Virus record (IMG/VR): IMGVR_UViG_3300001533_003231
Span: 13,482-34,538 of that record
Reading direction: 5' to 3' (one strand)
Origin: a virus
DNA: 21,057 nt
A model generated the notes under the pieces. It ran no database searches and was not told the DNA's origin. It worked only from the letters and a program-made list of their open reading frames with translations. Below, piece after piece: positions 3,589 to 16,118 of the stretch. Within the stretch, counting starts at the first letter, position 1; every line of letters begins with the position of its first letter. Both the position numbers and the translations under genes were made by a program.

Positions 3589-4625
3589 AATATCACCAGG
3601 GTTTCTTGCAAAAATGATCTTTTTAAATTTTCATCTGAAAAAATGACAATCAATGACGGTTCATATTCCCCAGGAGAAGCATATTGATGAGTTGTGGTAT
3701 GATTATTGGGATCGGTTACTGCTTCGTATTCGCCATCTCCAAACACCCAATATCTTTGTAATATATCTCCATCTGTTTGATCTATAAAATTAAAAGTAGC
3801 AGCAGTGGCCCCCAACGATGTTGCAGTAGAAATTGAATACGCAGGAGATGTTGTATCGTTTTGAACTACATAAAAAAAAGGTTGAATTTTTTCTTCGCTA
3901 ACAGTTATGTAGTTAGATTTAGTGACTACTCCTTGTCCTCCAGAAGAAGTAATAACATTTAGTTTAACTGTAAAAAGTCCTTCTGTTTGATATGTGTGAC
4001 TTGGACTTCGTTCTATAGAGGTTGTGCCATCACCAAAATCCCATAAATAGCGAACAACATGCCCGCAACTAAAATTTTGAAATGATACTTTTAATGGTGG
4101 GACACCTTTTAATGGAAATGCTCTAAATTGTGCTTTAGGAGATAAATACTTAACCTCCAAATCATGAATTTTTTTCGACAAAGTACCTGACACGGTGCTG
4201 TCAGTTGTCCCCACTTTAGATTCTATATTGAGTAGAGCATCTTTTTCAGCATTATGATGTTCGGCCATTACAGCATTACTAACTGTTACACCTGCTGACC
4301 ACCGATATTGGGTAGACCCAGAAAAACCACGAATTAAATTCTTAAATACGGTTCCGGTACGATTATCATAATAAATCAATTCATAATTACCAGCAGAACC
4401 CGAACCTGGGCCTATTCTAAGCATTCCTTTTGAGGGAAAACTACTAGCGTCTTCTACCACAATATGATTTCCTAAAAAAGGCAAACCTTGTTTAAGAATG
4501 GACTCGGCATTATTGGCAACTTCATAAAGACTGTCCTTATCATCTAAGGTATCCGGAAAAAGAGATAAATCTCCTGGCAAATATCCTTGATCTAAACTTG
4601 AAACTCTGGCAACACTAATTGTCAT
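3585..4625 (-). CDS. PKD-domain tail fiber/adhesin, 346 aa
   Basis: This is the third and shortest member of the tandem fiber family. The shared N-terminal domain covers about residues 30-135, with DSLYEV (31-36), FPSKGMLRIG (63-72), YELIYYD (81-87), an RGFSGSTQ turn (99-106) and VMAEHHNAEKDALL (119-132). Two PKD domains follow. The first is at about 162-244 with WDFGDG (195-200) and an SHTY strand. The second is at about 248-346 with YWVFGDGEY and a final beta strand, so the protein ends with its last PKD domain. PKD domains are Ig-like beta sandwiches typical of surface binding. The start overlaps the previous gene by 11 bases and the stop overlaps the next as ATGA, so translation is probably coupled. 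I infer a short tail fiber or decoration adhesin. No enzyme motif is visible. Confidence 0.85.
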   Translation of the reverse strand: MTISVARVSSLDQGYLPGDLSLFPDTLDDKDSLYEVANNAESILKQGLPFLGNHIVVEDASSFPSKGMLRIGPGSGSAGNYELIYYDNRTGTVFKNLIRGFSGSTQYRWSAGVTVSNAVMAEHHNAEKDALLNIESKVGTTDSTVSGTLSKKIHDLEVKYLSPKAQFRAFPLKGVPPLKVSFQNFSCGHVVRYLWDFGDGTTSIERSPSHTYQTEGLFTVKLNVITSSGGQGVVTKSNYITVSEEKIQPFFYVVQNDTTSPAYSISTATSLGATAATFNFIDQTDGDILQRYWVFGDGEYEAVTDPNNHTTTHQYASPGEYEPSLIVIFSDENLKRSFLQETLVIL

Positions 4626-5403
4626 TATTTTTTATTCTCTTCTTTTGTGATTCGGCTCTATTTTCGATTTGTTTTAAGATATTTACAAATTCATTGCGAA
4701 TTGGTGTTTTTTTATCTAGAGCTAAAATACATTTAGCCAATTCTAGATCTATTGGTTTTTGAAGAAGCAATCGAAGTTTTAATTCTTCAGTATAACGCTC
4801 ATTCCAATATTCAATGTTAGTTTCAAAATCATCAAATGGTTTTAATGGTTCAGCTTTTTCAAGGTCACGGTATGCTTGAAGGAAAAAAAGGGCTTCTTCT
4901 TCTGTCTCGCTCAGTTGTTTGCCCATTTTTTTTAATTCGTTTTCTAAAGACCTTAATCTTCGCCTAGCTTTCTTAACATTAATTTCAAAAATTCGCTTTC
5001 CTAAATCGTCTTTATATTCAGCATTTTCTTGTCTTTTAATATCTATGTTCGCCAACTCGATATCATCTTGTATATCTTCAATGGCTAATCGAAGGTTTTC
5101 GATATTTTCTTTACGAGTTTGTAATTCAACGACACATTTTCGCAATCTGGCTTGAATTGTTGGTTCTTTCCCTAAAATAAAGTATTTTAATTGAAAAAAA
5201 GTGTGTCTTCGTTGAGCTTCTGGTTTTGATGTAATTTGGTTAATATGAGCAAGCAAATCAGATGTATTATTATCTGATAATGGATTGTAAAGAGTTAACA
5301 AATCAGATGCGTTATCTAAATTAATTGCAATTTCTGGTATTTCTACTGCATAATTGCTCGATGTTGTGCGGGACGAACCGCATGCAGAAATCTCTCTTGA
5401 CAT
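4615..5403 (-). CDS. Coiled-coil protein of unknown function, 262 aa
   Basis: I chose the ATG at 5403 because a perfect GGAGG lies just upstream (5410-5414). A longer in-frame version would run into the start of the divergent gene at 5447. The protein begins MSREISACGSS and has an acidic, mixed N-terminal ~85 residues. A long charged helical segment follows (about 85-190), rich in Glu, Lys, Arg and Leu with heptad-like spacing, which predicts a coiled coil. A second helical part extends to a lysine-rich C-terminus. No signal peptide, membrane segment or catalytic motif is apparent. It is first in the fiber-gene group and overlaps the 346-aa fiber gene by 11 bases. A role as fiber chaperone or tail accessory is possible but unproven; I do not recognise the family. 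Confidence 0.75.
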   Translation of the reverse strand: MSREISACGSSRTTSSNYAVEIPEIAINLDNASDLLTLYNPLSDNNTSDLLAHINQITSKPEAQRRHTFFQLKYFILGKEPTIQARLRKCVVELQTRKENIENLRLAIEDIQDDIELANIDIKRQENAEYKDDLGKRIFEINVKKARRRLRSLENELKKMGKQLSETEEEALFFLQAYRDLEKAEPLKPFDDFETNIEYWNERYTEELKLRLLLQKPIDLELAKCILALDKKTPIRNEFVNILKQIENRAESQKKRIKNNDN

Positions 5404-5446
5404 AAGAAGCCTCCTAATGGAAAATATACAATAATAGAGGAATAAA
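5404..5446. promoter_or_regulatory. 43-bp divergent intergenic region, probable promoter(s)
   Basis: This is the only divergent gap in the window, between starts at 5403 (minus) and 5447 (plus). It holds both ribosome sites and an AT-rich core at about 5421-5436. On the plus strand TACAAT (5427-5432) resembles a -10 box, and on the minus strand ATTAT/TATTAT-like sequence covers the same place. A TTGACA at 5397-5402 is about 24 bases from TACAAT, too far for a good sigma-70 pair. The location makes a promoter likely; the exact boxes are uncertain. Confidence 0.3.
5410..5414 (-). promoter_or_regulatory. Shine-Dalgarno GGAGG fixing the start at 5403
   Basis: Minus-strand GGAGG lies six bases before the ATG at 5403-5401. 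It favours this start over a longer in-frame extension that has no such site and overlaps the divergent gene. Confidence 0.7.
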
Positions 5447-6037
5447 ATGGGTAAACTTGACAAAGCTGTGGGATATTTATCTGGCGCTATGGAATTTGTT
5501 CAGGACAACGGAATTATATGGCGTCGTGAATTCATAACCTCTGCCCGTCTTGCTGGTCTTAAAATTGACTTTATCGATCCCACCAATAAGCCAGGAGGGG
5601 AAGAATTACATGTAGGGGAGCAAAGGGACTATCAAATACAACTTCAAAAATCTGGAAATTTTGAAAAACTTAAAAATTATGTTCATCAATACCGCCGCAT
5701 TGACCTTAGGTTTGTAGACCTATCAGACTTTTTAATTTCCGTAGTTGATCCAAAAATCCCCCAATGGGGAACATCTAACGAAATTTATGTCGCTGAAAAA
5801 CAACACAAACCAATATTTGTTATTTGTGAAGGAGGACTTTATAATTTGCCACGATGGCTTTTTGATGTTGTTGATTTAAATTGTGTTTTCAAAACAGCAA
5901 ATGAAGTCATCGAAAAATTAGTCTTATTAGATTCTGGTAAAATTGAGTTGGATAATGAATGGGTATTAATAAGGAAATTCATTGAAGAAAATCGTTTGAT
6001 TCGTAAACAAATAGAAGGACAAATCACAACATTTTAG
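5447..6037 (+). CDS. Nucleoside 2-deoxyribosyltransferase-like protein, 196 aa
   Basis: This is the only plus-strand gene in the window. An AGAGG ribosome site precedes the ATG. The N-terminus carries the family hallmark YLSGAME (10-16), followed by WRREF and a second strand ending in FIDPTN (42-47). Further on are D91/D94 in the segment after strand three, the GTSNEI motif (108-113) where the family has a G-T/A-x-x-E-I active-site helix, and the KPIFVI strand (121-126). These match the Rossmann-like nucleoside deoxyribosyltransferase/DUF4406 fold, which cleaves or exchanges the base on deoxynucleosides. In phages such proteins are thought to act in nucleotide salvage or base modification. 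Substrate and activity cannot be read here, and a related nucleosidase is possible. The 3' end overlaps the convergent gene by 14 bases. Confidence 0.7.
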   Translation: MGKLDKAVGYLSGAMEFVQDNGIIWRREFITSARLAGLKIDFIDPTNKPGGEELHVGEQRDYQIQLQKSGNFEKLKNYVHQYRRIDLRFVDLSDFLISVVDPKIPQWGTSNEIYVAEKQHKPIFVICEGGLYNLPRWLFDVVDLNCVFKTANEVIEKLVLLDSGKIELDNEWVLIRKFIEENRLIRKQIEGQITTF

Positions 6038-6590
6038 CACCTAAAATAGCCTTAAACCGGCAACCTTTGTCCAAAGCTTCGTATGCCCAAAATTGTTTAG
6101 ATATACTTAGCGGATTTTCTGTAAAATCACCAACGGTTTTAAAAGTCTTTTGATGAATCAAAATTCCATTCAAAGTAGCTTCGTGAAATTCATTATAGAT
6201 TTTAACAGGAATTCTATCTCTGTTGTAATCCACCACTATAGGAAATAAAATATCTAATTCATCCTCCACCCAACAAAAGTATTTTTGATCAATTTTAGGT
6301 CTAACAGTAGTTCCTTCAATTACTAATATATTCCATTCTTTATGCCCTCGTCGAATTCCCGCATTCAGCAAGGATGTCATTGTTTTCTTGCCTCTTGTTG
6401 TCGGACAAATTTCTTTTAATTCTTTGAGTTCGGGCGAATTAGTATCCTCGTCGACCACACAGGAAATCGAGATGTCTTCACTGTAACGATTTTTTATGGA
6501 ACGCACAGTTTGTTGAACTCTTCCTATATTGTGCTCAGGTGAAAGGATTACAAACCCAAAATTCAAATTTTTCTTTTTGAATCGAGTCAT
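6024..6590 (-). CDS. Glycosyltransferase family 2-like (GT-A fold) protein, 188 aa
   Basis: The ATG at 6590 shares its A with the TAA of the upstream fiber gene (TAATG). The N-terminus NFGFVILSPEHN, followed by a QQTVRSIK helix (26-33) and an ISCVVDED strand (42-49), is typical of GT-A nucleotide-sugar folds. SLLNAGIRRG (73-82) and EWNILVIEGTTV (85-96) match the conserved central strand of small phage GT2-like proteins. The usual DxD metal motif is not evident; EG occupies roughly that place, so activity is uncertain. A late WAYEAL segment (168-173) fits the family's C-terminal helix. At 188 aa it is short for a full GT2 enzyme. It may glycosylate a virion protein or host surface molecule, or be a degenerate fold. 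Confidence 0.6.
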   Translation of the reverse strand: MTRFKKKNLNFGFVILSPEHNIGRVQQTVRSIKNRYSEDISISCVVDEDTNSPELKELKEICPTTRGKKTMTSLLNAGIRRGHKEWNILVIEGTTVRPKIDQKYFCWVEDELDILFPIVVDYNRDRIPVKIYNEFHEATLNGILIHQKTFKTVGDFTENPLSISKQFWAYEALDKGCRFKAILGAKML

Positions 6591-7405
6591 TATGTATAAT
6601 CACTATCCCAATCAATGCGTATTACATCTGATGCAGTAAGTGCTCTATTTAGCGTAAATGTTCCTGCTGATGGACTAGAAGATGCAATACTTGTAAGTGT
6701 CCATGTCCCGTCTGGGCCTGTAGATCCGTTGTAAACATAAACAGATTCGTGTTCGCTCAAACGAATTCCATTAACATACACACGAAGGGTATCCGATACA
6801 AATGCTGTACTGACAGATGTTGTCTTGTAATTAGTATAGTCTGGGCTCGATGGATTGTTGTGAGCAGGTTCACGATCATAATAATGAGCATGAGCCGCAT
6901 CAGAAGGAAAAACAGTGTGAGCTTTTATAATATCGGGAGATTCCAATGAAAAAGTAATTGTATCTGAATGACGAAATCTTGCTACGCCACTTGTTAATAA
7001 CTCAGTGGTAGAAATTGATTCTACTTGAATATCCAAATCATTAGCACCTGATTCAATTAAACTTAATTTGTCACGTTCGCTTAATGTCATCCTAACATAA
7101 GAAATTGTCGCTCCTCCATCACCGTCATCACGACTGCCATCCTCATGATAAGCAATACTGTGTAAAGAATTATTAACGGCAGATGTTTTCAAAGCTCCTG
7201 TATCGTCTAAGGCAACTCCTAATCGTGCTGACAAACTCGATGTCGAACCTATAGAATTGCGCAAAATATCTGCATTTATATCAACCTGATAATTTACTAA
7301 ATCAATCCTAGTTAAAATATTATTAAGAGGAATGTTGTCATAATGAAAATGATAGGGCCATGCCCCCGAATACATTACCTCTCCAATTTTTGTAATTTCA
7401 GGCAT
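6590..7405 (-). CDS. Phage tail fiber-like structural protein, 271 aa
   Basis: The start at 7405 lies 18 bases past the SET gene stop, and the ATG is followed by PEITKIGEVMYSG. The N-terminal part contains a helical stretch (about residues 28-75: ILTRIDLVNYQVDINADILR, then SLSARLGVAL) and SLHSIAYHED, a pattern I associate with phage fiber N-termini. After a Gly/Asp-rich linker comes a beta-rich region with HSDTITFSLE and histidine clusters (AHAHYYDREPAHN). The C-terminal ~60 residues form a compact module with VYVNGIRLSE, DGTWTLTSI and FTLNRALTASDVIRIDW, like the C-terminal domains of many phage fibers and appendages. No enzyme motif is seen. It most likely encodes a virion appendage, with moderate certainty. 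Confidence 0.65.
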   Translation of the reverse strand: MPEITKIGEVMYSGAWPYHFHYDNIPLNNILTRIDLVNYQVDINADILRNSIGSTSSLSARLGVALDDTGALKTSAVNNSLHSIAYHEDGSRDDGDGGATISYVRMTLSERDKLSLIESGANDLDIQVESISTTELLTSGVARFRHSDTITFSLESPDIIKAHTVFPSDAAHAHYYDREPAHNNPSSPDYTNYKTTSVSTAFVSDTLRVYVNGIRLSEHESVYVYNGSTGPDGTWTLTSIASSSPSAGTFTLNRALTASDVIRIDWDSDYT

Positions 7406-7423: not shown

Positions 7424-7960
7424 TCACTCTTGTCTCAATTGACCTAAATTATATAGATCATAAGACAAAAAGGTTTCCCAATCATCTTCAAATCTGTCAA
7501 TCTCATTTGCTTTTTTTTCGGCCCAATCCATAATGCCCGTCCATTCCTGACCATAATTTCCTAAAATCTCTTCGTCAGGTACAATGTCCCTAATGAAACG
7601 ATAAATAACTTTCCCAGCAGCAGCGTTTTTCTTAGGACCGTTGTGATAAAAAATCTCTGCATTTTGTTGCTCAGGAGTGGTCGCATGATTTACCATTCCA
7701 CCATATCCTACAGGCAATACCTTTGCGGAAAAATCGGTGTGATATTTCCCTTTAATAATTTTGCCATTTGCAGCAAATTTATATCTGTCTCCGTAATGCG
7801 TACATTTGTCAGATAAAGAATCTTTTTTTACCATTACGCCAATAATTTCTAAATGATCACCTTTTTCTAAAAAAACTTTAGAAAAAACTCCCAAACCAGC
7901 ATTTGGCATGGTAGATTCCGCAAGATAAAACCTTTCGTCAGTTTCTTCTACTAAAATCAT
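7424..7960 (-). CDS. SET-domain protein-lysine methyltransferase-like protein, 178 aa
   Basis: I chose the ATG at 7960, which overlaps the upstream stop as TGATG; a TTG six bases earlier is less likely. The whole protein is one SET domain. It shows the N-terminal GxG motif in AGLGVFS (21-27), a strand and turn LEKGDHLEIIG (31-41), the NHA motif (91-93) with NAEI (100-103) in place of the canonical NHS-x-PN, and EEILGNYG (130-137) in place of EELTFDYG. Tyr136 is in the catalytic position. SET enzymes transfer methyl from S-adenosylmethionine to lysine. A ~40-residue C-terminal tail follows, with no post-SET cysteines. It sits inside the tail operon between two virion-like genes, so a structural protein or a host factor could be the substrate. 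That is inference; the fold call is firm. Confidence 0.85.
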   Translation of the reverse strand: MILVEETDERFYLAESTMPNAGLGVFSKVFLEKGDHLEIIGVMVKKDSLSDKCTHYGDRYKFAANGKIIKGKYHTDFSAKVLPVGYGGMVNHATTPEQQNAEIFYHNGPKKNAAAGKVIYRFIRDIVPDEEILGNYGQEWTGIMDWAEKKANEIDRFEDDWETFLSYDLYNLGQLRQE

Positions 7961-8238
7961 CAGCAATCAATATATCCGTCTTCTATAGCTTTGTTTATTT
8001 CTTTAAATGTTAATTCTTTCTCAAGAACCTCAGATAAACATTGTATGAAATTATAAGAAATGTCACCATATATCGACTTTTTCAAAAAAGGATCGTTGCC
8101 ACAAAAAGATCTTGCCCGCTTCAATTCCGATGGATTTATTCCCCAATCAAACAAAGCATTGTCAAAATATAAAGCCCGATACTTCTGTTCTGTTTCAGGA
8201 TCATAAACCTCTCGAATTTGTACTTTGTATCTCGCCAT
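7960..8238 (-). CDS. Small hypothetical protein, 92 aa
   Basis: The gene is read from an ATG at 8238, three bases after the upstream TAA, and its stop overlaps the SET gene start. I do not recognise the family. It is a soluble, charged protein with two N-terminal strands (ARYKVQIREVY), an acidic middle with FDWGINPSELKRAR, two cysteines and a C-terminal helix pair (LTFKEINKAIEDG). No signal peptide or membrane segment is seen. Tight coupling to the SET gene makes a linked function possible, for example as partner or substrate, but nothing in the sequence proves this. Confidence 0.7.
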   Translation of the reverse strand: MARYKVQIREVYDPETEQKYRALYFDNALFDWGINPSELKRARSFCGNDPFLKKSIYGDISYNFIQCLSEVLEKELTFKEINKAIEDGYIDC

Positions 8239-8241
8239 AAA

Positions 8242-8709
8242 TTAAATAAATGCAACTCGCCAGGTAAAAGTAACTTGCATTTGCGAAGTCTTTGAAAAGC
8301 CTCCAAATGTGGACATGCTGTACAGATTGCCCGAATTCATTTTTAATCCTAATTCATTAATGGTATAACCATTTGCGTCACTTCTGGATAAAACTGAAGT
8401 AAAAACAACTTGTGTAAGATCATTTGGATCAATGTTGGCAATTACGCCCTTTTCAATTACAGAAGTGAATAATCCAGTCCTTTCTTCCGTCACATACTTA
8501 GGAACACCTCCCGCTGTACCGCCCTCTCCAAAAACCATACGACTAATAAAATAATCGTAATTGTCGCCGTAAGAATTGGCCAAACTGGCAGCTAAAGATT
8601 TCCTACCCTCCGCAAGAACTGAATTTTGTAAAATTAAATGTTCGATTTTCCCATCGTCCCATTCTTTGGTAATTTCAATATCACCCTTACATTTGATTTT
8701 TTCAATCAT
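8242..8709 (-). CDS. Phage virion/baseplate accessory protein, 155 aa
   Basis: A good AAGGAG lies a few bases before the ATG, which overlaps the upstream stop as ATGA (8706-8709). The N-terminus begins with a strand pair (KCKGDIEITKEW) followed by a helix with LAEGRKSLAASLA. A conserved-looking middle has YFISRMVFGEGGTAGG. The C-terminal third is beta-rich: NELGLKMNSG, LYSMSTFGGFSKTSQM, VTFTWRVAFI. A closing strand of the type QVTFTWRV is common in phage tail-fiber attachment and collar-type proteins, and this one directly follows the wedge gene. I infer a baseplate-fiber connector or short fiber, without a firm family name. Confidence 0.6.
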   Translation of the reverse strand: MIEKIKCKGDIEITKEWDDGKIEHLILQNSVLAEGRKSLAASLANSYGDNYDYFISRMVFGEGGTAGGVPKYVTEERTGLFTSVIEKGVIANIDPNDLTQVVFTSVLSRSDANGYTINELGLKMNSGNLYSMSTFGGFSKTSQMQVTFTWRVAFI

Positions 8710-11639
8710 AATTCTCCTTGTTCAACCTTTCCATCATCGTATTCAATCTTATAAGATATCGCTTCTTGCTGATTGACTAAATCTAGTGTCTCCTCTGAAC
8801 CACTAGCAGCATTCAAAATTCGTGCCGCCATAGATGCCGAAAACATCGACATCGATGTTCCATATTCAACCTCATATTCAATAATAGGTAATCCACCCCT
8901 ATCTACATACTCAAAAGTATGACCAGGAACTTCTGGCTCTTCTCGTGCAGGAATTACGACCCCTTCTTTTTCATATTGGTAAATGTCGAAAGTTACCGCC
9001 GTTCCTGCTAATGTCCAGTCGTTTGATGGCCCATCTAATGTAATTATAGAACCATCAATGTCACTAATAGCAAAATATTCTGACCCTATAAGTATTAAAT
9101 AATTTTCTTTCAAATCATTGTCGACAATTCCCTGAATTAAAGGATTGGGCGGATTTGTACCATTTACAATCGGCAAAGTTGTCTCATAATTAGTCGGAGC
9201 AGTATCTAATTGAAGCCCTCTATATCCCAATTGACCAATGCCATTCTCTGCTAATCTACGATAAACAACAACAGATACACCAGCAACATCCCCACCTGTA
9301 TAATTGTCAATGTAGAACATGTAATTGTCACCTTCTACAAAACCAATGACCTCATATTGAGTGCTGTTATACATTAAATAATCACCAATCTTTACATAAT
9401 TGCGAATATTCTCCAATGTAGTTGCGGCACTTCCTGGTCTAAAATCTACAATCGCTCTACGACGAACAGTGAGAGCACCACCAGTGCCCGTGGCACGGGT
9501 GGTGCCACTACCATCTTGTATTAACCATGTCATCCCAGTAGTATTAGATGTCGGCAAACTCCCATCATCTGCCAAAACTAAACTTCCATTTGGCAACATG
9601 TGTTCAATTACAAAGGTTCCGCCACCTGACGAGGTAATAATTAATTCCCAAGGTGTTCCTGTATAAATCCCTTCATCAACATCCCATTGTGTTTGTACGC
9701 CTAATTGCGGGAAATTTATGGAACTGTCGCTGAAAGTAAAATAATCATCTTGTTCAATGTTTACGGGATTTCCTTCAATAATTTTGTTAGATATGCGAAA
9801 AACAAACTGGGATTGATTGCTTGCTTCAGTTCCTGCTGGTGACACTATGTCTGCCATAAATTCGTTTACATTATTAACAGAATAATTACCTGCCAAAATG
9901 TGAGGGGATAAAATTTCCAGTAAATTTGAATTATCCAACGCCAAGCCACTTACATTGTCTGTATTGATTCTTAAATTAGAAAAATTAACCCTATTTCCCT
10001 GTGTAGTATCCCCTACAGCAGAACTTCCTGAGGAGAAAATTGCTGTTGCTATATTAGAACCAGTTCCAGATTGTGCTGATGCTCTGGTGGTTACATTTGC
10101 CAGCATATTTCTTTTCATTAAAGATAACGCATCATCATGTGGCACCGATCTACTAAAAATTCTTTGTCCTTCTCCTGCCAAAACAATTTCTTCCCCAAAA
10201 TAATGTATAAGAATAATAATTTCTTCTGTTGGAGGTGGAATAAAATCTTTTATTATCCCGCTAAAATTCATAGAGTGTAAAACAGCATGAAATGGCAAAT
10301 ATTCATCCAAAATGTCTGTTGCTTCTAAAATTCTGTCATTTGTCAAATCTTCTATTCCGATATCGATAACATATTTGCTTCCTTGGCAATCACGACACGG
10401 ATCTAAAAACTCTTTATCTATATTACAAGGATTAATGGATTCCCTAGTGCTTCCGTCGTACTCTTCCATATTATAAGCATTTTCACTGTATGAAAATTCT
10501 GTCCTTACCCAACCGAATACGAGCGGATCATGGAGCGGGTGCCTAACGGGAATTATTAAATCAAATAAAGGGTCGTCTTCTTCTATAACTCTAACATTCC
10601 AATTTTTTGGAGGATAACACTGATCCCTTTCATCTCTTTGGTCTTCAAGTTCCAAAGTCCTTACATAATTTTCGAGAGTTTGAGATGTTGCATCTGGTAT
10701 TAATGCTACTTTATAAATAATTCTAATTGCGTCATCCTCTGACAAAATTATTGGATCTACCGACAAATCTCCTCCTAACCAAGTGGCCGTTGTAGAAGAA
10801 ATATCAACATAATCAGCAGTTAGTTCTGTCCAGATAGTATCTGACGATCCTCTATAATAAACTTCTGTGTTTGCGGGATCAGAAATTGCTGTTTTAGACA
10901 ATGTAAAAATAGTTTGTCCGTCCTCTTCGACGTTGAAATATTCTTGCCAAGTATAATGAGAAATAACTTGCCACAAACGAGTAAAACTTTCCAAAAACAT
11001 ATTGGATTGACTAAGGGCGTCTTCCAAACCCGATTTTGTGCCTTTTTTCTTGTAAAGAGGAATAGATTCTTTGATTTGTCGTCTCCAAAGAGTAGGGTCG
11101 GAAGTTCTTAATTTTAAGTTAAAATAATTTCCCAAAAGACCCAAATGTGCCTCGGGCAACACATTAGCATCTATAAGTCCAAGAATTTGATTTGCTTGAT
11201 TTTCTAAATCAGTCAATATTTTAGCTGCTGCTAAATTAAAGCCCTGAATAATGTATGGAGTATAATCCCCATCTCCTAATTGTGAAAGGAAAACATTGGG
11301 CGTGTATCTTTCTAATAAAGTTGAATATTTTTCAGGGTCTGTTTGTTGTGTAGGAAGAGTGGTTGTTAAATTGGTATCGCATCTTAATCTAAAAAATTGG
11401 TTAGAAGTCAATGAATCACCAGCGGCATTGGGCATCCATGTCCAACAAATAAGATAATCACCTTCTTTTTCACCAATTGGAGACCATATCAAATTGAAAG
11501 TTCCAGCAATTTCGTTATCGTCATCATCTATTGCTGGCGTCAAAACATTACTTAAAATAACTTCATTTCTTTCTGATGCTGGAACACTTGCAGGATTTAA
11601 CCATGCAGGATGGTCTTCTTCTAATCCGCTTGTACTTAT
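8706..11639 (-). CDS. Baseplate wedge protein, gp7/tail protein I-like, main part (5' end lost to a frameshift)
   Basis: The first usual start in frame is a TTG at 11543, but clear coding continues upstream through DHPAWLNPASVP to the overlap with the previous gene. No ATG, GTG or TTG exists there, so this is the body of a larger protein. Near the N-terminus is a P2 gpI-like tail-protein-I region: RYTPNVFLSQLGDGDYTPY, LTDLENQANQILG, LGNYFNLKLR and the diagnostic YKKKGTKSGLEDALSQ. A Cys cluster (NPCN ... DPCRDCQG, about 10383-10435) may bind metal. The rest is long and beta-rich, ending in YKIEYDDGKVEQGEL. Joined to the 107-aa fragment it would be about 1,080 residues, close to T4 gp7. In T4-like baseplates gp7 joins the wedge to gp6 and gp25. 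It carries an internal hairpin at 9475-9505. Confidence 0.8.
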   Translation of the reverse strand: MSTSGLEEDHPAWLNPASVPASERNEVILSNVLTPAIDDDDNEIAGTFNLIWSPIGEKEGDYLICWTWMPNAAGDSLTSNQFFRLRCDTNLTTTLPTQQTDPEKYSTLLERYTPNVFLSQLGDGDYTPYIIQGFNLAAAKILTDLENQANQILGLIDANVLPEAHLGLLGNYFNLKLRTSDPTLWRRQIKESIPLYKKKGTKSGLEDALSQSNMFLESFTRLWQVISHYTWQEYFNVEEDGQTIFTLSKTAISDPANTEVYYRGSSDTIWTELTADYVDISSTTATWLGGDLSVDPIILSEDDAIRIIYKVALIPDATSQTLENYVRTLELEDQRDERDQCYPPKNWNVRVIEEDDPLFDLIIPVRHPLHDPLVFGWVRTEFSYSENAYNMEEYDGSTRESINPCNIDKEFLDPCRDCQGSKYVIDIGIEDLTNDRILEATDILDEYLPFHAVLHSMNFSGIIKDFIPPPTEEIIILIHYFGEEIVLAGEGQRIFSRSVPHDDALSLMKRNMLANVTTRASAQSGTGSNIATAIFSSGSSAVGDTTQGNRVNFSNLRINTDNVSGLALDNSNLLEILSPHILAGNYSVNNVNEFMADIVSPAGTEASNQSQFVFRISNKIIEGNPVNIEQDDYFTFSDSSINFPQLGVQTQWDVDEGIYTGTPWELIITSSGGGTFVIEHMLPNGSLVLADDGSLPTSNTTGMTWLIQDGSGTTRATGTGGALTVRRRAIVDFRPGSAATTLENIRNYVKIGDYLMYNSTQYEVIGFVEGDNYMFYIDNYTGGDVAGVSVVVYRRLAENGIGQLGYRGLQLDTAPTNYETTLPIVNGTNPPNPLIQGIVDNDLKENYLILIGSEYFAISDIDGSIITLDGPSNDWTLAGTAVTFDIYQYEKEGVVIPAREEPEVPGHTFEYVDRGGLPIIEYEVEYGTSMSMFSASMAARILNAASGSEETLDLVNQQEAISYKIEYDDGKVEQGEL
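9475..9505. repeat. GC-rich imperfect inverted repeat inside the wedge gene
   Basis: Outer arms 9475-9482 and 9498-9505 (GCACCACC/GGTGGTGC) pair perfectly. After one A-G mismatch (9483/9497), inner arms 9484-9488 and 9492-9496 (GTGCC/GGCAC) pair around loop CGT. On the coding strand it reads TTRATGTGGA, a Thr/Gly-rich turn. No T-run follows, so it is not a terminator. Confidence 0.8.
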
Positions 11640-11961: not shown

Positions 11962-13539
11962 TTACTCATACATAAATGATATTTCGATAGAATCTGGACG
12001 AATGATTTCGTAATATTGAGCAGTAATCTCCGTACCAGAATTAGAACTATCGCTTGTTACATAAGACACATTAAAACTATCTACCCTAGATATATTAGAT
12101 AACGCTTTGGTTAGACTAGAACTGGTCAAATCCTGTCCATATTCCCAATTTATTAGGTCAAAATAAGAATTCGTAACATTTTCTATTTGAGTTTTAATTT
12201 CTAATTCATATTTTCTGTACAATCTGTTTAATACAGCTTCTATTGTGATGTCAACTTCAATAACAGTTCCGTCTTTTATACAAACATAGTCTGTTATCAT
12301 CTTTTTTTCGTCAAACTCTTCGTAAAGTGCTGATTTTAATTCATCAGATGCTTCTATAAGTCCGTTTGATTCGTTTCGTGCCAAAATATAAACATCTACA
12401 ATATTGGCTGCACAACCCTTGTTTCGTAAAACCGCAACAGATTTTCCAACTTGACCATGATAAGGCGTTACAAAAAGATCAGATATAGTCTTATAATCAA
12501 GACCCGTCACAGCCCTGTTTTGTGTCCTGGCCCAAATAGGCAATTTCCGCCTGATGTCTTCAATGGTGTCACCGTCATATCCATATTGTCCCGCTGTATA
12601 ATTCCGCAAACCAACAGGTACTGTATATCCCAATCCTCGTATTACGGCTTGTCTTTGAGTTTCCACAAAACTTGTAACGATATTACCTTTTGTTCCACCC
12701 CCAACTCGATATGTCACTTCTATGTCAGCACCATTTGATGGAGATAAACCGCGAGTATTATTTCCAAACATTACATAAGCACTATAAACAGAATCATATT
12801 CTACTCTGAATTCCCTACGAGGGTGAGAATCAGTAAAGTAATTAACCTTTTCCCATAATACACCATCTACTCTTACCGATACAGAATCATAAATTACTGG
12901 CGAATCTACTAATGCCAATGTTTGTAAAGGCACACCAGTCCCAAGAAACGAATTTGTTGTTGTTTTTCCTTCTAATCCAATTATATTATCAATTACTAAT
13001 TGACCAGCAGGAATAACAATATCATCGTCTAAAAGAGGGTCTCCATTGGCATCTGTTGAAAAAAGTTCTATCGTTATTGGACCGTCATCAGTAGTTACAT
13101 CTACCTCTAAAGGTGTGGCAAGAGTAACGTCTTGAGTAAGAGCGCTGGTTAGTGTTGCTGTCCATTTGCTTCGTGATGGAAGAGGTGCTGTAGGTTCAAA
13201 TCCCACCAATTTGGCCAATCTAAAAGCATTGTCGGCCTCAGTTACGGTATCAAGAAAAAACTCATTGGCAATTTGGTCCATCTTAAAAGACAGAGTATCT
13301 CCTAAAAATGCTAAGTTTTCTATTAACATAATAGCAATAGAAGATTCTACCAAATCATTAAATGTATTGGGTAAAACTGTGCCATCTTCACCGAATCTTT
13401 CATTAAGAAATTCTACCATCCTAGATTTTAATGACCAAAATTCTTGGTTGGTATAATTTAAATTAATGATAGAATTGTTTTTAATAGTTTCCGCTTGTGA
13501 TAACGGTGTCACAGTGGCGGGACAATTTTTTTTAGTCAT
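11962..13539 (-). CDS. Baseplate wedge protein, J-like (T4 gp6 family), 525 aa
   Basis: GGAGGAT lies three bases before the ATG at 13539, and the start abuts the gp25 stop. Residues about 27-115 carry the gp6/Baseplate_J N-terminal pattern: FWSLKSRMVEFLNERFG, FNDLVESSIAIMLIENLAFLGDTLSFKMDQIANEFFLDT and AFRLAKLVGFEP. The middle has VRVDGVLWEKV, followed by MFGNNTRGLSP and ITYRVGGGTKGNIV-type beta segments. The later part includes VTGLDYKTISDLFV and, near the end, LTSSSLTKALSNISRVDSFNV, as in J proteins. gp6/J forms the iris ring of the baseplate wedge that holds hub and wedges together and changes shape on contraction. Its placement between gp25 and the gp7-like gene matches T4-like and P2-like order. 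Confidence 0.92.
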   Translation of the reverse strand: MTKKNCPATVTPLSQAETIKNNSIINLNYTNQEFWSLKSRMVEFLNERFGEDGTVLPNTFNDLVESSIAIMLIENLAFLGDTLSFKMDQIANEFFLDTVTEADNAFRLAKLVGFEPTAPLPSRSKWTATLTSALTQDVTLATPLEVDVTTDDGPITIELFSTDANGDPLLDDDIVIPAGQLVIDNIIGLEGKTTTNSFLGTGVPLQTLALVDSPVIYDSVSVRVDGVLWEKVNYFTDSHPRREFRVEYDSVYSAYVMFGNNTRGLSPSNGADIEVTYRVGGGTKGNIVTSFVETQRQAVIRGLGYTVPVGLRNYTAGQYGYDGDTIEDIRRKLPIWARTQNRAVTGLDYKTISDLFVTPYHGQVGKSVAVLRNKGCAANIVDVYILARNESNGLIEASDELKSALYEEFDEKKMITDYVCIKDGTVIEVDITIEAVLNRLYRKYELEIKTQIENVTNSYFDLINWEYGQDLTSSSLTKALSNISRVDSFNVSYVTSDSSNSGTEITAQYYEIIRPDSIEISFMYE

Positions 13540-13971
13540 TTATCCTCCGAGCGGTATCTCTAACTTTAATTCATTTATTTTTGATATATTTTTAAAATCA
13601 GAGAATTCTATTCTTATCATAAGAATGTGTGGTAAATCTTCTTGTGTATCTTCTAAATCCAAACTGGATTCAATGCTGTTGGGATCATTTGTTATATTTA
13701 TTTCTAAATTTTGAATTACCACTCTTGGCTCCCACATTTTAATAGAATTTATTATCATCTCACGAACCCTTTCAGAAGTTTCAAAATCATTTGGTTCAAA
13801 GATAATTTCATCTAATGGAGTGCCAAAAAGAGGCAACATAACTCGCTCACCAGGGTTTGTTAATAGCAAAGACAATAAATCTGCTTTAATTACATCGGAA
13901 TCTTTTGCTGTATGAAGAAACCCTCTTGGATGCTTTTTTATAGGATAAGGATTTCCTAAAAAAGTAATCAT
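13540..13971 (-). CDS. Baseplate wedge protein gp25 (W/gp25 family), 143 aa
   Basis: I chose the ATG at 13971. A GGAGGG (13978-13983) lies six bases upstream, and the ATG overlaps the spike gene stop as ATGA. An eight-residue longer version has no such support. Family motifs are clear: LLLTNPGERVMLPLFGTPLDEIIFEP (36-60) and the gp25 signature EPR (81-83) within MWEPRVVIQNLEI. The protein is of normal gp25 length. gp25 binds gp6 and the sheath-proximal baseplate and nucleates sheath assembly in contractile tails and injection systems. No lysozyme active site is present; the old lysozyme label of this family is not functional. Confidence 0.95.
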   Translation of the reverse strand: MITFLGNPYPIKKHPRGFLHTAKDSDVIKADLLSLLLTNPGERVMLPLFGTPLDEIIFEPNDFETSERVREMIINSIKMWEPRVVIQNLEINITNDPNSIESSLDLEDTQEDLPHILMIRIEFSDFKNISKINELKLEIPLGG

Positions 13972-16118
13972 GAACAACCCTCCAACGGTGAACAAGGCAT
14001 AGTAAATGGAAGCAAGTGAAAAAGACTACAACAACTGGCTGTGTTGGAAGCCGACGCGAACACACGATCACTTGCAACAATGCGGTTACCTTGCAAAACT
14101 AAAACAGGAAATGCTCCAGGGCCACACTTGTCCTCAGATCTTGGGCTGCGGCCACGAGTTTCAGTATCATAGTCTTTTCCAGCCAATAAATAAATAACTT
14201 GATCCGCTAAAAACAAATGAGCTTCTGCAATATTATAATAAAATTTACACGATTTGTGCAGTGTGTGTTTGCTAACCATTGTGAATTTGTTTCGCGGTCC
14301 CAAACAGCCACCATCACAAAATGAATCTGTTGCTCCTGCCGCTATTGCCTCATTTGCGTCTTGAGCATTTCCTGCACCGACTACTGTATAATGATCTTTT
14401 TCTGTGTAACAAACATAATCCCCACCAGCACGTATAAAAATTTGTCCACAATTGGGGTTTTCTTGCATCCTAATAATGTGTGGACCACAGCATGCTGTAT
14501 ATTGTGGAGAATATAATTGGATGTATTGTTGGTCTGTTTCTTTTTCTTGTTTATGATAATCAGCCATCATTATTTCAAGACCGTAACCAGTTCGTGTTCT
14601 AATGAAAGCATTTTTAGCAGTTGAACTGGGTATTCCACCTTCTTTGCGTGGTTGACATTGCTCATTATCAACATCTGACATATCAAATGTATGATTTGCC
14701 GTACTTTGCATGTGAATTCCGCGATTTTCCCCTGCTTGACCATTGCCATTGCATGTTAATGTGTGGTCATTTAAATAAATTTCATTCCCACTTGCCGTGA
14801 GAATTTGAATACCATTCCAATCACGATCAGGATGTTTTCCTCTAACATTTGTTTTTTCTTCATAATCTTCCATCCTAATTCTGTGGCCAGTAGCAGATAT
14901 CCAATCTGTGTATCCTTCAAATTTATCGGTGCAACCAAAATCAAAACTTCTAGTGCCCCTTTCCCACTCTGGTTTATTTTGTGGTTGTTCCACACTGTCA
15001 TCTGCCCTGAATGTGTGTCCACTGCGACTAATTAATTGAAATCCACTTTGGGGCAAATCAATTTTGTTGTTTTGCGGGGTTCCCACACCTTTGTAAGGCA
15101 AACATTCGCTTTGGTGTTTGTGATATGGATTGGCACATTGGTTTTGACTTCCATCGGGGGGGCAAGAAGCTTTTTCTAATGGTATGCCATTTTCATCATT
15201 ACATGTGCTTACATCTCCACTACCACCACATGCACAGTCGGGATGTAGCCACTGACCAGATGGGTGCAAATGATCATCCTTAAAAAGCAATAAATTCCCT
15301 TGACCAGATTTTAGTTCAATACGACACCATCTGTGATTACACTTATAATTCCCATCAACCATTTTGAGCATGTGTTTTTGTGGTGTTTTGAAGCCATAAA
15401 TGTTGGGATAAGTAATCTTTTTCTTAGCGTCTGTGTCTTCGTCATATTCTTGGAAAGAATCTATATCATATCCGTTATAATTTTCTGTATTCCAAGGAGG
15501 AAAAACTTGCGAACCATCATTTTTTCCAATGTAATAACCCTTGCGATGTCCTTCATGAATTTTGTGATATTCATCAATTGGTGGTCCTTTTATGGCACCC
15601 TTTTCTGTCTTTTTTTCCCAATAATGTTCCCCGTCTGGTCCTCTATCACGATCCCAAGTGGTTCCCAAATAGAAACCCATTTTTTTATTGCCACCTTCAA
15701 AAGCTAAACAAAGCTTCGAGCCAGCAGGAGGAACCCAAGTACAGCCAGAATCGTCAAAACCACCCATGTTTGAGATAGGATATGCCCAAGGTAGTTGTTT
15801 TGCTGTCACGGTTTCAGGATCATGAAACAATGGGCTAAACCATCGAACTCGGCCTTGCTTCCATGGATCAATGGTGTCATAACAAATAGCTGTGTGTATT
15901 CCAAAATAAGTGTCTGATTGTGCCGGAATGTTCCAACTTGTTTTAATTTCAGATTGGACCATGGTTTTGTTAATATAGCCCAATTCGGAAAATCGCTCTT
16001 CTATTTGGGAGATGCGACTGTTGACTGATTCTATTGCGTCCCAAAAATTACTGGAACTTTTCTGAGGACTTGCTCGAAATTGAGCGATTTGTTGACGCAT
16101 TTCTGATAAAGATACCAT
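13968..16118 (-). CDS. Baseplate central spike, gp5/VgrG-like, cysteine-rich, 716 aa
   Basis: AGGTG precedes the ATG at 16118. After an N-terminal coiled helix (SRISQIEERFSEL), an OB-fold domain at about 71-155 has the gp5/base_V motifs: GRVRWFSPL (89-97), LPWAYPISNMGGFDDSGCTWVPPAGSKL (109-136) and LAFEGGN, then MGFYLGTTW. From about 355 the protein is a repeating beta-strand spike with units such as SRSGHTFRADD, SATGHRIRMEDY, TASGNEIYLND and STANHTFDMSD, as in gp5 beta-helices. I counted 26 cysteines. A cluster with histidines at about 255-345 suggests metal sites or crosslinks, and the C-terminus has CCSLFHLLP and EGCS near the expected tip. The T4-type lysozyme domain is absent. The spike sits on the hub and pierces the host envelope. 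Confidence 0.85.
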   Translation of the reverse strand: MVSLSEMRQQIAQFRASPQKSSSNFWDAIESVNSRISQIEERFSELGYINKTMVQSEIKTSWNIPAQSDTYFGIHTAICYDTIDPWKQGRVRWFSPLFHDPETVTAKQLPWAYPISNMGGFDDSGCTWVPPAGSKLCLAFEGGNKKMGFYLGTTWDRDRGPDGEHYWEKKTEKGAIKGPPIDEYHKIHEGHRKGYYIGKNDGSQVFPPWNTENYNGYDIDSFQEYDEDTDAKKKITYPNIYGFKTPQKHMLKMVDGNYKCNHRWCRIELKSGQGNLLLFKDDHLHPSGQWLHPDCACGGSGDVSTCNDENGIPLEKASCPPDGSQNQCANPYHKHQSECLPYKGVGTPQNNKIDLPQSGFQLISRSGHTFRADDSVEQPQNKPEWERGTRSFDFGCTDKFEGYTDWISATGHRIRMEDYEEKTNVRGKHPDRDWNGIQILTASGNEIYLNDHTLTCNGNGQAGENRGIHMQSTANHTFDMSDVDNEQCQPRKEGGIPSSTAKNAFIRTRTGYGLEIMMADYHKQEKETDQQYIQLYSPQYTACCGPHIIRMQENPNCGQIFIRAGGDYVCYTEKDHYTVVGAGNAQDANEAIAAGATDSFCDGGCLGPRNKFTMVSKHTLHKSCKFYYNIAEAHLFLADQVIYLLAGKDYDTETRGRSPRSEDKCGPGAFPVLVLQGNRIVASDRVFASASNTASCCSLFHLLPFTMPCSPLEGCS
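13978..13983 (-). promoter_or_regulatory. Shine-Dalgarno GGAGGG fixing the gp25 start
   Basis: Minus-strand GGAGGG lies six bases from the ATG at 13971, inside the end of the spike gene. Together with the ATGA overlap it selects the shorter gp25 start and implies coupled translation. Confidence 0.75.

Follow-up and report, generated by a model that had tools for sequence, protein, structure and literature searches.

Introduction

Whether a SET-domain gene embedded in the tail operon of a phage encodes a working protein-lysine methyltransferase, and with what partner and on what protein such an enzyme would act, is the question raised by the DNA analysed here. This DNA, called the window below, is a stretch of 21,057 nucleotides forming part of a 34,538-base IMG/VR virus record (IMGVR_UViG_3300001533_003231). 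Its SET gene encodes a candidate lysine methyltransferase of 178 residues (7424..7960, minus strand), and the gene just upstream encodes a 92-residue protein, the "FDW" protein, here called SMALL (7960..8238, minus strand). SET genes in phages are already known as annotations (e.g., PMC9025141); the pairing with SMALL appears to be new. In the open-licence PMC papers searched, we met no phage-encoded lysine methyltransferase that had been studied by experiment as acting on virion or host proteins.

Results

SET lies in a baseplate operon

The initial annotation had placed SET between virion genes of a baseplate operon. Pfam searches agree, with gp25, Phage_base_V, Tail_P2_I and Phage_tail_fib all above cut-off. 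In the following, coordinates refer to the minus strand unless stated. The operon runs from a baseplate spike/hub protein with an OB domain (gp5/VgrG-like, 13968..16118; Phage_base_V, 3.5e-7) through a gp25-like baseplate wedge protein (13540..13995; GPW_gp25, 2.5e-15), a baseplate J-like protein (gpJ, 11962..13539; Baseplate_J at a sub-threshold 0.0011, plus synteny), and a protein resembling P2 tail protein I (gpI, 8706..11543; Tail_P2_I, 2.8e-4, just above cut-off), to TFIB155 (8242..8709), a baseplate protein like the tail-collar-fibre N terminus (PF12571, 3e-6) that also matches PHROG baseplate wedge and tail families. SMALL and SET follow. Directly downstream of SET is FIB271 (6590..7405), a conserved fibre-like structural protein whose function is assigned from its position only, and which keeps its place in almost every copy of the operon, whether SET is present or not. 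Then come a conserved protein of 188 residues (6024..6590), syntenic in related operons, a nucleoside 2-deoxyribosyltransferase-like gene on the opposite strand (5447..6037, plus strand), a coiled-coil protein (4615-5463) and a PKD protein. Because the neighbours include gp25, the gp5/VgrG-like OB protein, tail protein I and the collar-fibre protein, we take the baseplate setting to be real.

Two of these genes deserve separate mention. The 188-residue protein had no Pfam or PHROG match, and its orthologue gave nothing significant; by eye only, its N terminus looks glycosyltransferase-like. The deoxyribosyltransferase-like gene scored 0.0044 with Pfam in the window and 3e-6 to 5e-6 in an orthologue, all below curated cut-offs, and its place on the opposite strand within the tail operon is kept in most related phages.

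The SET active site is conserved

The SET gene starts at an ATG at 7960. The Pfam SET family (PF00856) matched the window protein at E=1.8e-6 (28.8 bits against a curated cut-off of 22.4) and matched all 16 aligned family members, the best at 2.2e-11. A profile built from the phage family in turn matched solved SET proteins, namely 4rz0 (E=3e-10), 5h6z (6e-6) and EZH2 (9e-5), as well as the chlorella-virus vSET (5e-4). NCBIfam matched neither SET nor SMALL. PHROG likewise gave no match to either window protein, i.e., no homology to a known virion protein.

Viral-contig scans, searches of phage records and one genome scan yielded 54 distinct phage SET relatives, about 36-67% identical, of which 53 are full-length. 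Nearly all are in metagenomic phage contigs, several longer than 300 kb, and one is in the 595-kb phage LR756511. Most records are metagenomic fragments, and a gene missing from a contig may still be present in the phage. The nearest cellular relatives found are three bacterial SET genes in Chloroflexi and Planctomycetes MAGs, stand-alone and without SMALL. As a side observation, one phage that already carries SMALL and SET (G006) has, at 28.8 kb, a second, different SET protein (L035:1438-1986); its gene adjoins an AAA-type gene, lacks a SMALL and matches the profile weakly (E=8e-7).

The initial annotation described a SET domain with all core motifs. The window protein indeed contains GLGVF, NHA...QN and EEILGNYG, and these held up on closer alignment. 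Both glycines of the motif I GxG (residues 22-24) are present in all 54 distinct relatives. Among the 53 full-length copies, N91, H92 and N100 of motif III and E131 and Y136 of motif IV are invariant, and G137 is found in 52. The textbook set of motifs also includes YxG (motif II) and gives motif III as RFINHxCxPN (PMC3585878); motif IV is written ELxFDY(G). In the phage family the R, F, C and P flanking motif III vary, and YxG was not found as a conserved element of the alignment, so that "all core motifs" was a slight overstatement. We do not take the missing YxG to exclude a SET enzyme, because it lies outside the pseudoknot of motifs III and IV that binds AdoMet and forms the active site, and the pseudoknot is complete. 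The AlphaFold model of SET is of low confidence (pLDDT 57.6), and the fold assignment therefore rests on sequence profiles. For close pairs where it was measurable, dN/dS was 0.03-0.20. With this low ratio and complete active-site residues in every full-length relative, the lysine methyltransferase identity claimed at the outset is a well-supported prediction.

SMALL accompanies SET

In the window, the SMALL stop codon overlaps the SET start codon by one base (TGATG). The translational link to a small gene noted in the initial annotation thus holds, and it extends further than was claimed: a SMALL homologue lies upstream of SET in 52 of the 54 distinct cases, overlapping SET in 45, separated by 0-3 nt in five and by one gene in two. 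SET without SMALL was seen in three phage records, two of which (L084 and L085) share one SET sequence; the third is L088. SMALL also appears to be under purifying selection, with dN/dS of 0.07-0.14 for measurable pairs. A SMALL homologue occurs in a 527-kb phage record (G012, L253:5251-5541, minus strand), where neither a SET nor a lysine transaminase was found.

SMALL has no known fold. Its predicted structure, a beta hairpin with three helices (pLDDT 90), gave no significant match in the PDB or among viral models. Nor could it be placed in DUF7337 or phrog_5473; a single relative gave weak hits, scoring 18 bits with DUF7337, where the cut-off is 30, and 22 bits with phrog_5473. A single-sequence scan of viral contigs for SMALL returned known loci only.

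A natural fusion of SMALL and SET

In a 436-kb phage record (G010, L254:5615-6783), one gene joins SMALL to a SET domain, which matches Pfam SET at 1.1e-7 and lacks the NH and the terminal tyrosine. An intact SET gene follows directly, with an ATGA overlap. At the level of sequence, this fusion is our best evidence for physical cooperation of SMALL and SET; it suggests that SMALL is a stoichiometric subunit, and the two G010 proteins are possibly an enzyme/pseudoenzyme pair. The degenerate domain might also be read as a sign that SET is a mere passenger, decayed or a structural pseudoenzyme with no enzymatic role. Given the invariant active-site residues of full-length copies, the low dN/dS and the intact gene right after the degenerate one, we regard that reading as highly improbable.

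The explanation we favour, with somewhat more confidence than doubt, is that SMALL and SET form a two-subunit phage lysine methyltransferase in which SMALL is the dedicated partner and the target is most likely a late phage protein. SET would use S-adenosylmethionine as donor to methylate lysine side chains. SMALL, presumably made from the same message, would bind SET and position it on the target protein or bring it there. The most likely target would be a phage protein of late infection, for which tail or virion assembly is the strongest candidate. We observe that the active-site residues are kept, that both genes are under purifying selection, that their start and stop codons are coupled, that the two genes nearly always co-occur and, as described below, are gained, lost and relocated together, that they are fused in one phage, and that a second SMALL lineage lies beside another lysine enzyme; from these we infer catalytic activity, a physical complex, a targeting role and a late or virion substrate. 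Several points count against the two-subunit explanation: genes may be paired for joint expression although their products do not bind each other, three records have SET without SMALL, one has SMALL with neither enzyme, and no lysine column of the tail proteins points to a substrate.

SMALL and SET move as one cassette

Searches with FIB271 and TFIB155 found 79 loci with the same gene order and neither SMALL nor SET. In 47 of the 79, the flanking domains are 13-74 nt apart, versus 427-2456 nt where the two genes are present; in both counts, loci of one contig that overlap are counted separately, and the numbers free of such duplicates are 76 operons and 54 SETs. Following removal of near-copies, 38 of the 76 distinct syntenic operons have the cassette and 38 do not. 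On a tree of the baseplate J-like protein (a quick search, with SH-aLRT support only), presence of the cassette changes at least 12 times, six of these changes being forced by starred branches.

The initial annotation had asked whether SET always neighbours tail genes, and it does not. At least seven other phage records (L002, L003, L008, L010, L017, L064 and L084) have SET away from the tail operon. LR756511 has, at 550-570 kb, an operon collinear with the window except that it lacks SMALL, SET and FIB271; SMALL and SET have relocated together to 401 kb, beside a helicase gene. FIB271 was searched for in LR756511 and not found. SMALL and SET behave as one cassette that is gained, lost and relocated jointly.

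Candidate substrates

TFIB155 and FIB271 flank the large majority of the SET copies found, within the conserved late operon. This would fit methylation by SET of a structural protein of the same operon (TFIB155, FIB271, gpI or a baseplate protein), tuning assembly or adsorption, a proposal that overlaps our preferred explanation on the substrate only. The relocated copies and the half of operons without SET speak against it, and so does LR756511, which keeps SET and has no FIB271; FIB271 as the sole substrate was rejected on that ground. Comparison of lysine columns was of no help to the proposal either. Five are enriched in SET-containing operons, four of them in the coiled-coil protein. In independent-pair tests, three enriched columns were not significant (median p 0.25-1), and among seven tail-operon proteins no lysine column tracks the presence of SET convincingly. 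K140 of TFIB155 is uninformative because it is invariant with and without SET. On balance we think methylation of an operon protein in this specific sense unlikely, if worth keeping in mind. A virion substrate, which the initial annotation favoured from gene location, stays plausible on that basis. It is weaker than was claimed because of the relocated copies, the operons without the cassette, the dispensable fibre-like neighbour and the lack of a tail-protein lysine that tracks SET.

An optional cassette with repeated gain and loss on the operon tree resembles accessory host-interaction genes, and SET might accordingly act on a host protein (e.g., ribosomal, nucleoid or defence) during infection, the tail operon supplying only late expression. 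The stand-alone SET genes of Chloroflexi and Planctomycetes MAGs are in keeping with this idea, as are bacterial SET proteins known to modify another organism's proteins (PMC3980110). A late structural operon would, however, be an unusual location for a gene that serves to take over the host early, and the searches gave no sign of a host target. The one match in an anti-phage defence library is short and weak (18 bits). We consider a host target improbable, to about the same degree as the operon-protein proposal.

A second SMALL lineage precedes lysine 6-transaminase-like genes

A second SMALL of LR756511, at 503.9 kb, stands one base ahead of a gene resembling L-lysine 6-transaminase (LAT). 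This pair lies at L257:3417-4947 (LR756511 503.9-505.4 kb), and another such pair at L252:5004-6671. The LAT-like protein scored 511 bits with TIGR03251, just under the equivalog cut-off of 520.8. A LAT orthologue in G011 scored 507 bits and matched M. tuberculosis LAT (PDB 2cin) at E=9e-109. Among 31 LAT loci of phages, 17 have an upstream SMALL, in most cases no more than a few bases away. Seven genomes (W01, G005, G001, G006, G022, G023 and G024) have both enzymes and two SMALLs, one per enzyme. The SMALL on the LAT side lies about 320 nt from LAT in G006, the one on the SET side is interrupted in G001 by a frameshift or an assembly error, and in G023 SET was located exactly where the second SMALL predicted it. 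Three genomes have LAT and no SMALL, and SET is likewise missing from the sequence covered.

The SMALL relatives beside lysine transaminase genes point to an unrecognised phage lysine-modification module, and the association of SMALL with two enzymes of the lysine epsilon-amine suggests that it either brings such enzymes to one common place or is itself the lysine carrier. In its boldest form, SMALL would be a new domain that presents or carries lysines for epsilon-amine enzymes, SET making methyl-lysine and LAT perhaps turning lysine within proteins into allysine, whose reactive aldehyde can form protein cross-links; large phages with both pairs would then have a new lysine-modification system, post-translational and of a kind not previously described. 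We hold this form to be speculative and, on present evidence, unlikely.

That SMALL pairs one to one with both of these epsilon-amine enzymes could mean that SMALL itself is the substrate. SET would methylate a SMALL lysine, probably in the basic N-terminal strand, and the methylated SMALL would act in tail assembly or elsewhere; LAT would act likewise on its own SMALL. Of 49 SMALLs, 43 do have a lysine among residues 2-6, whereas for the other genes of these loci the share is 39%. Several SMALLs lack it (e.g., L114, L142 and L118), no lysine is invariant across the family, and the N-terminal lysine as a fixed target was rejected for that reason. In addition, free lysine is the normal substrate of lysine transaminases, and the fusion to a dead SET domain suggests a subunit rather than a substrate. 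SMALL as substrate is thus, in our estimate, a slightly poorer prospect than a structural or a host target.

Discussion

Our preferred explanation, a methyltransferase of two subunits, can now be put to direct trial, since enzyme, partner and substrate are all testable with 54 intact-site proteins, the partner, the fusion, and matched groups of phages that carry or lack the cassette. The second lineage raises the further question of what links a single family of small proteins to two distinct enzymes of the lysine epsilon-amine. Neither the SMALL family, nor its pairing with SET or with lysine transaminase, nor the fusion was found in the libraries and open-licence PMC papers searched.

Known SET-domain methyltransferases, including P. 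falciparum PFL0690c (4rz0), SET domain-containing protein 7 (5h6z) and PBCV-1 vSET (1n3j), have the GxG, NH...N and E..xYG elements in common with the phage proteins. The window SET is, like vSET, compact and stand-alone. In contrast to PF00856 proteins, phage SET sits in an operon with an obligate-looking small partner, has no conserved YxG and no histone context, and carries an extra conserved C-terminal tail, (F/L)LxxDLYNL. ORF62 of Stenotrophomonas phage Ps15 (PMC9025141) is also a SET domain in a phage genome, known here by annotation. By analogy, a putative SMALL-SET enzyme would resemble MLL/Set1 and EZH2/PRC2, in which a catalytic SET subunit works with non-catalytic partners, although in the searches made SMALL resembled no known SET partner in sequence or fold. 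The phage LAT genes match L-lysine 6-transaminase (TIGR03251; 2cin) over the full length at 507-511 bits; they differ in scoring just below the equivalog cut-off and in lying directly downstream of a SMALL paralogue.
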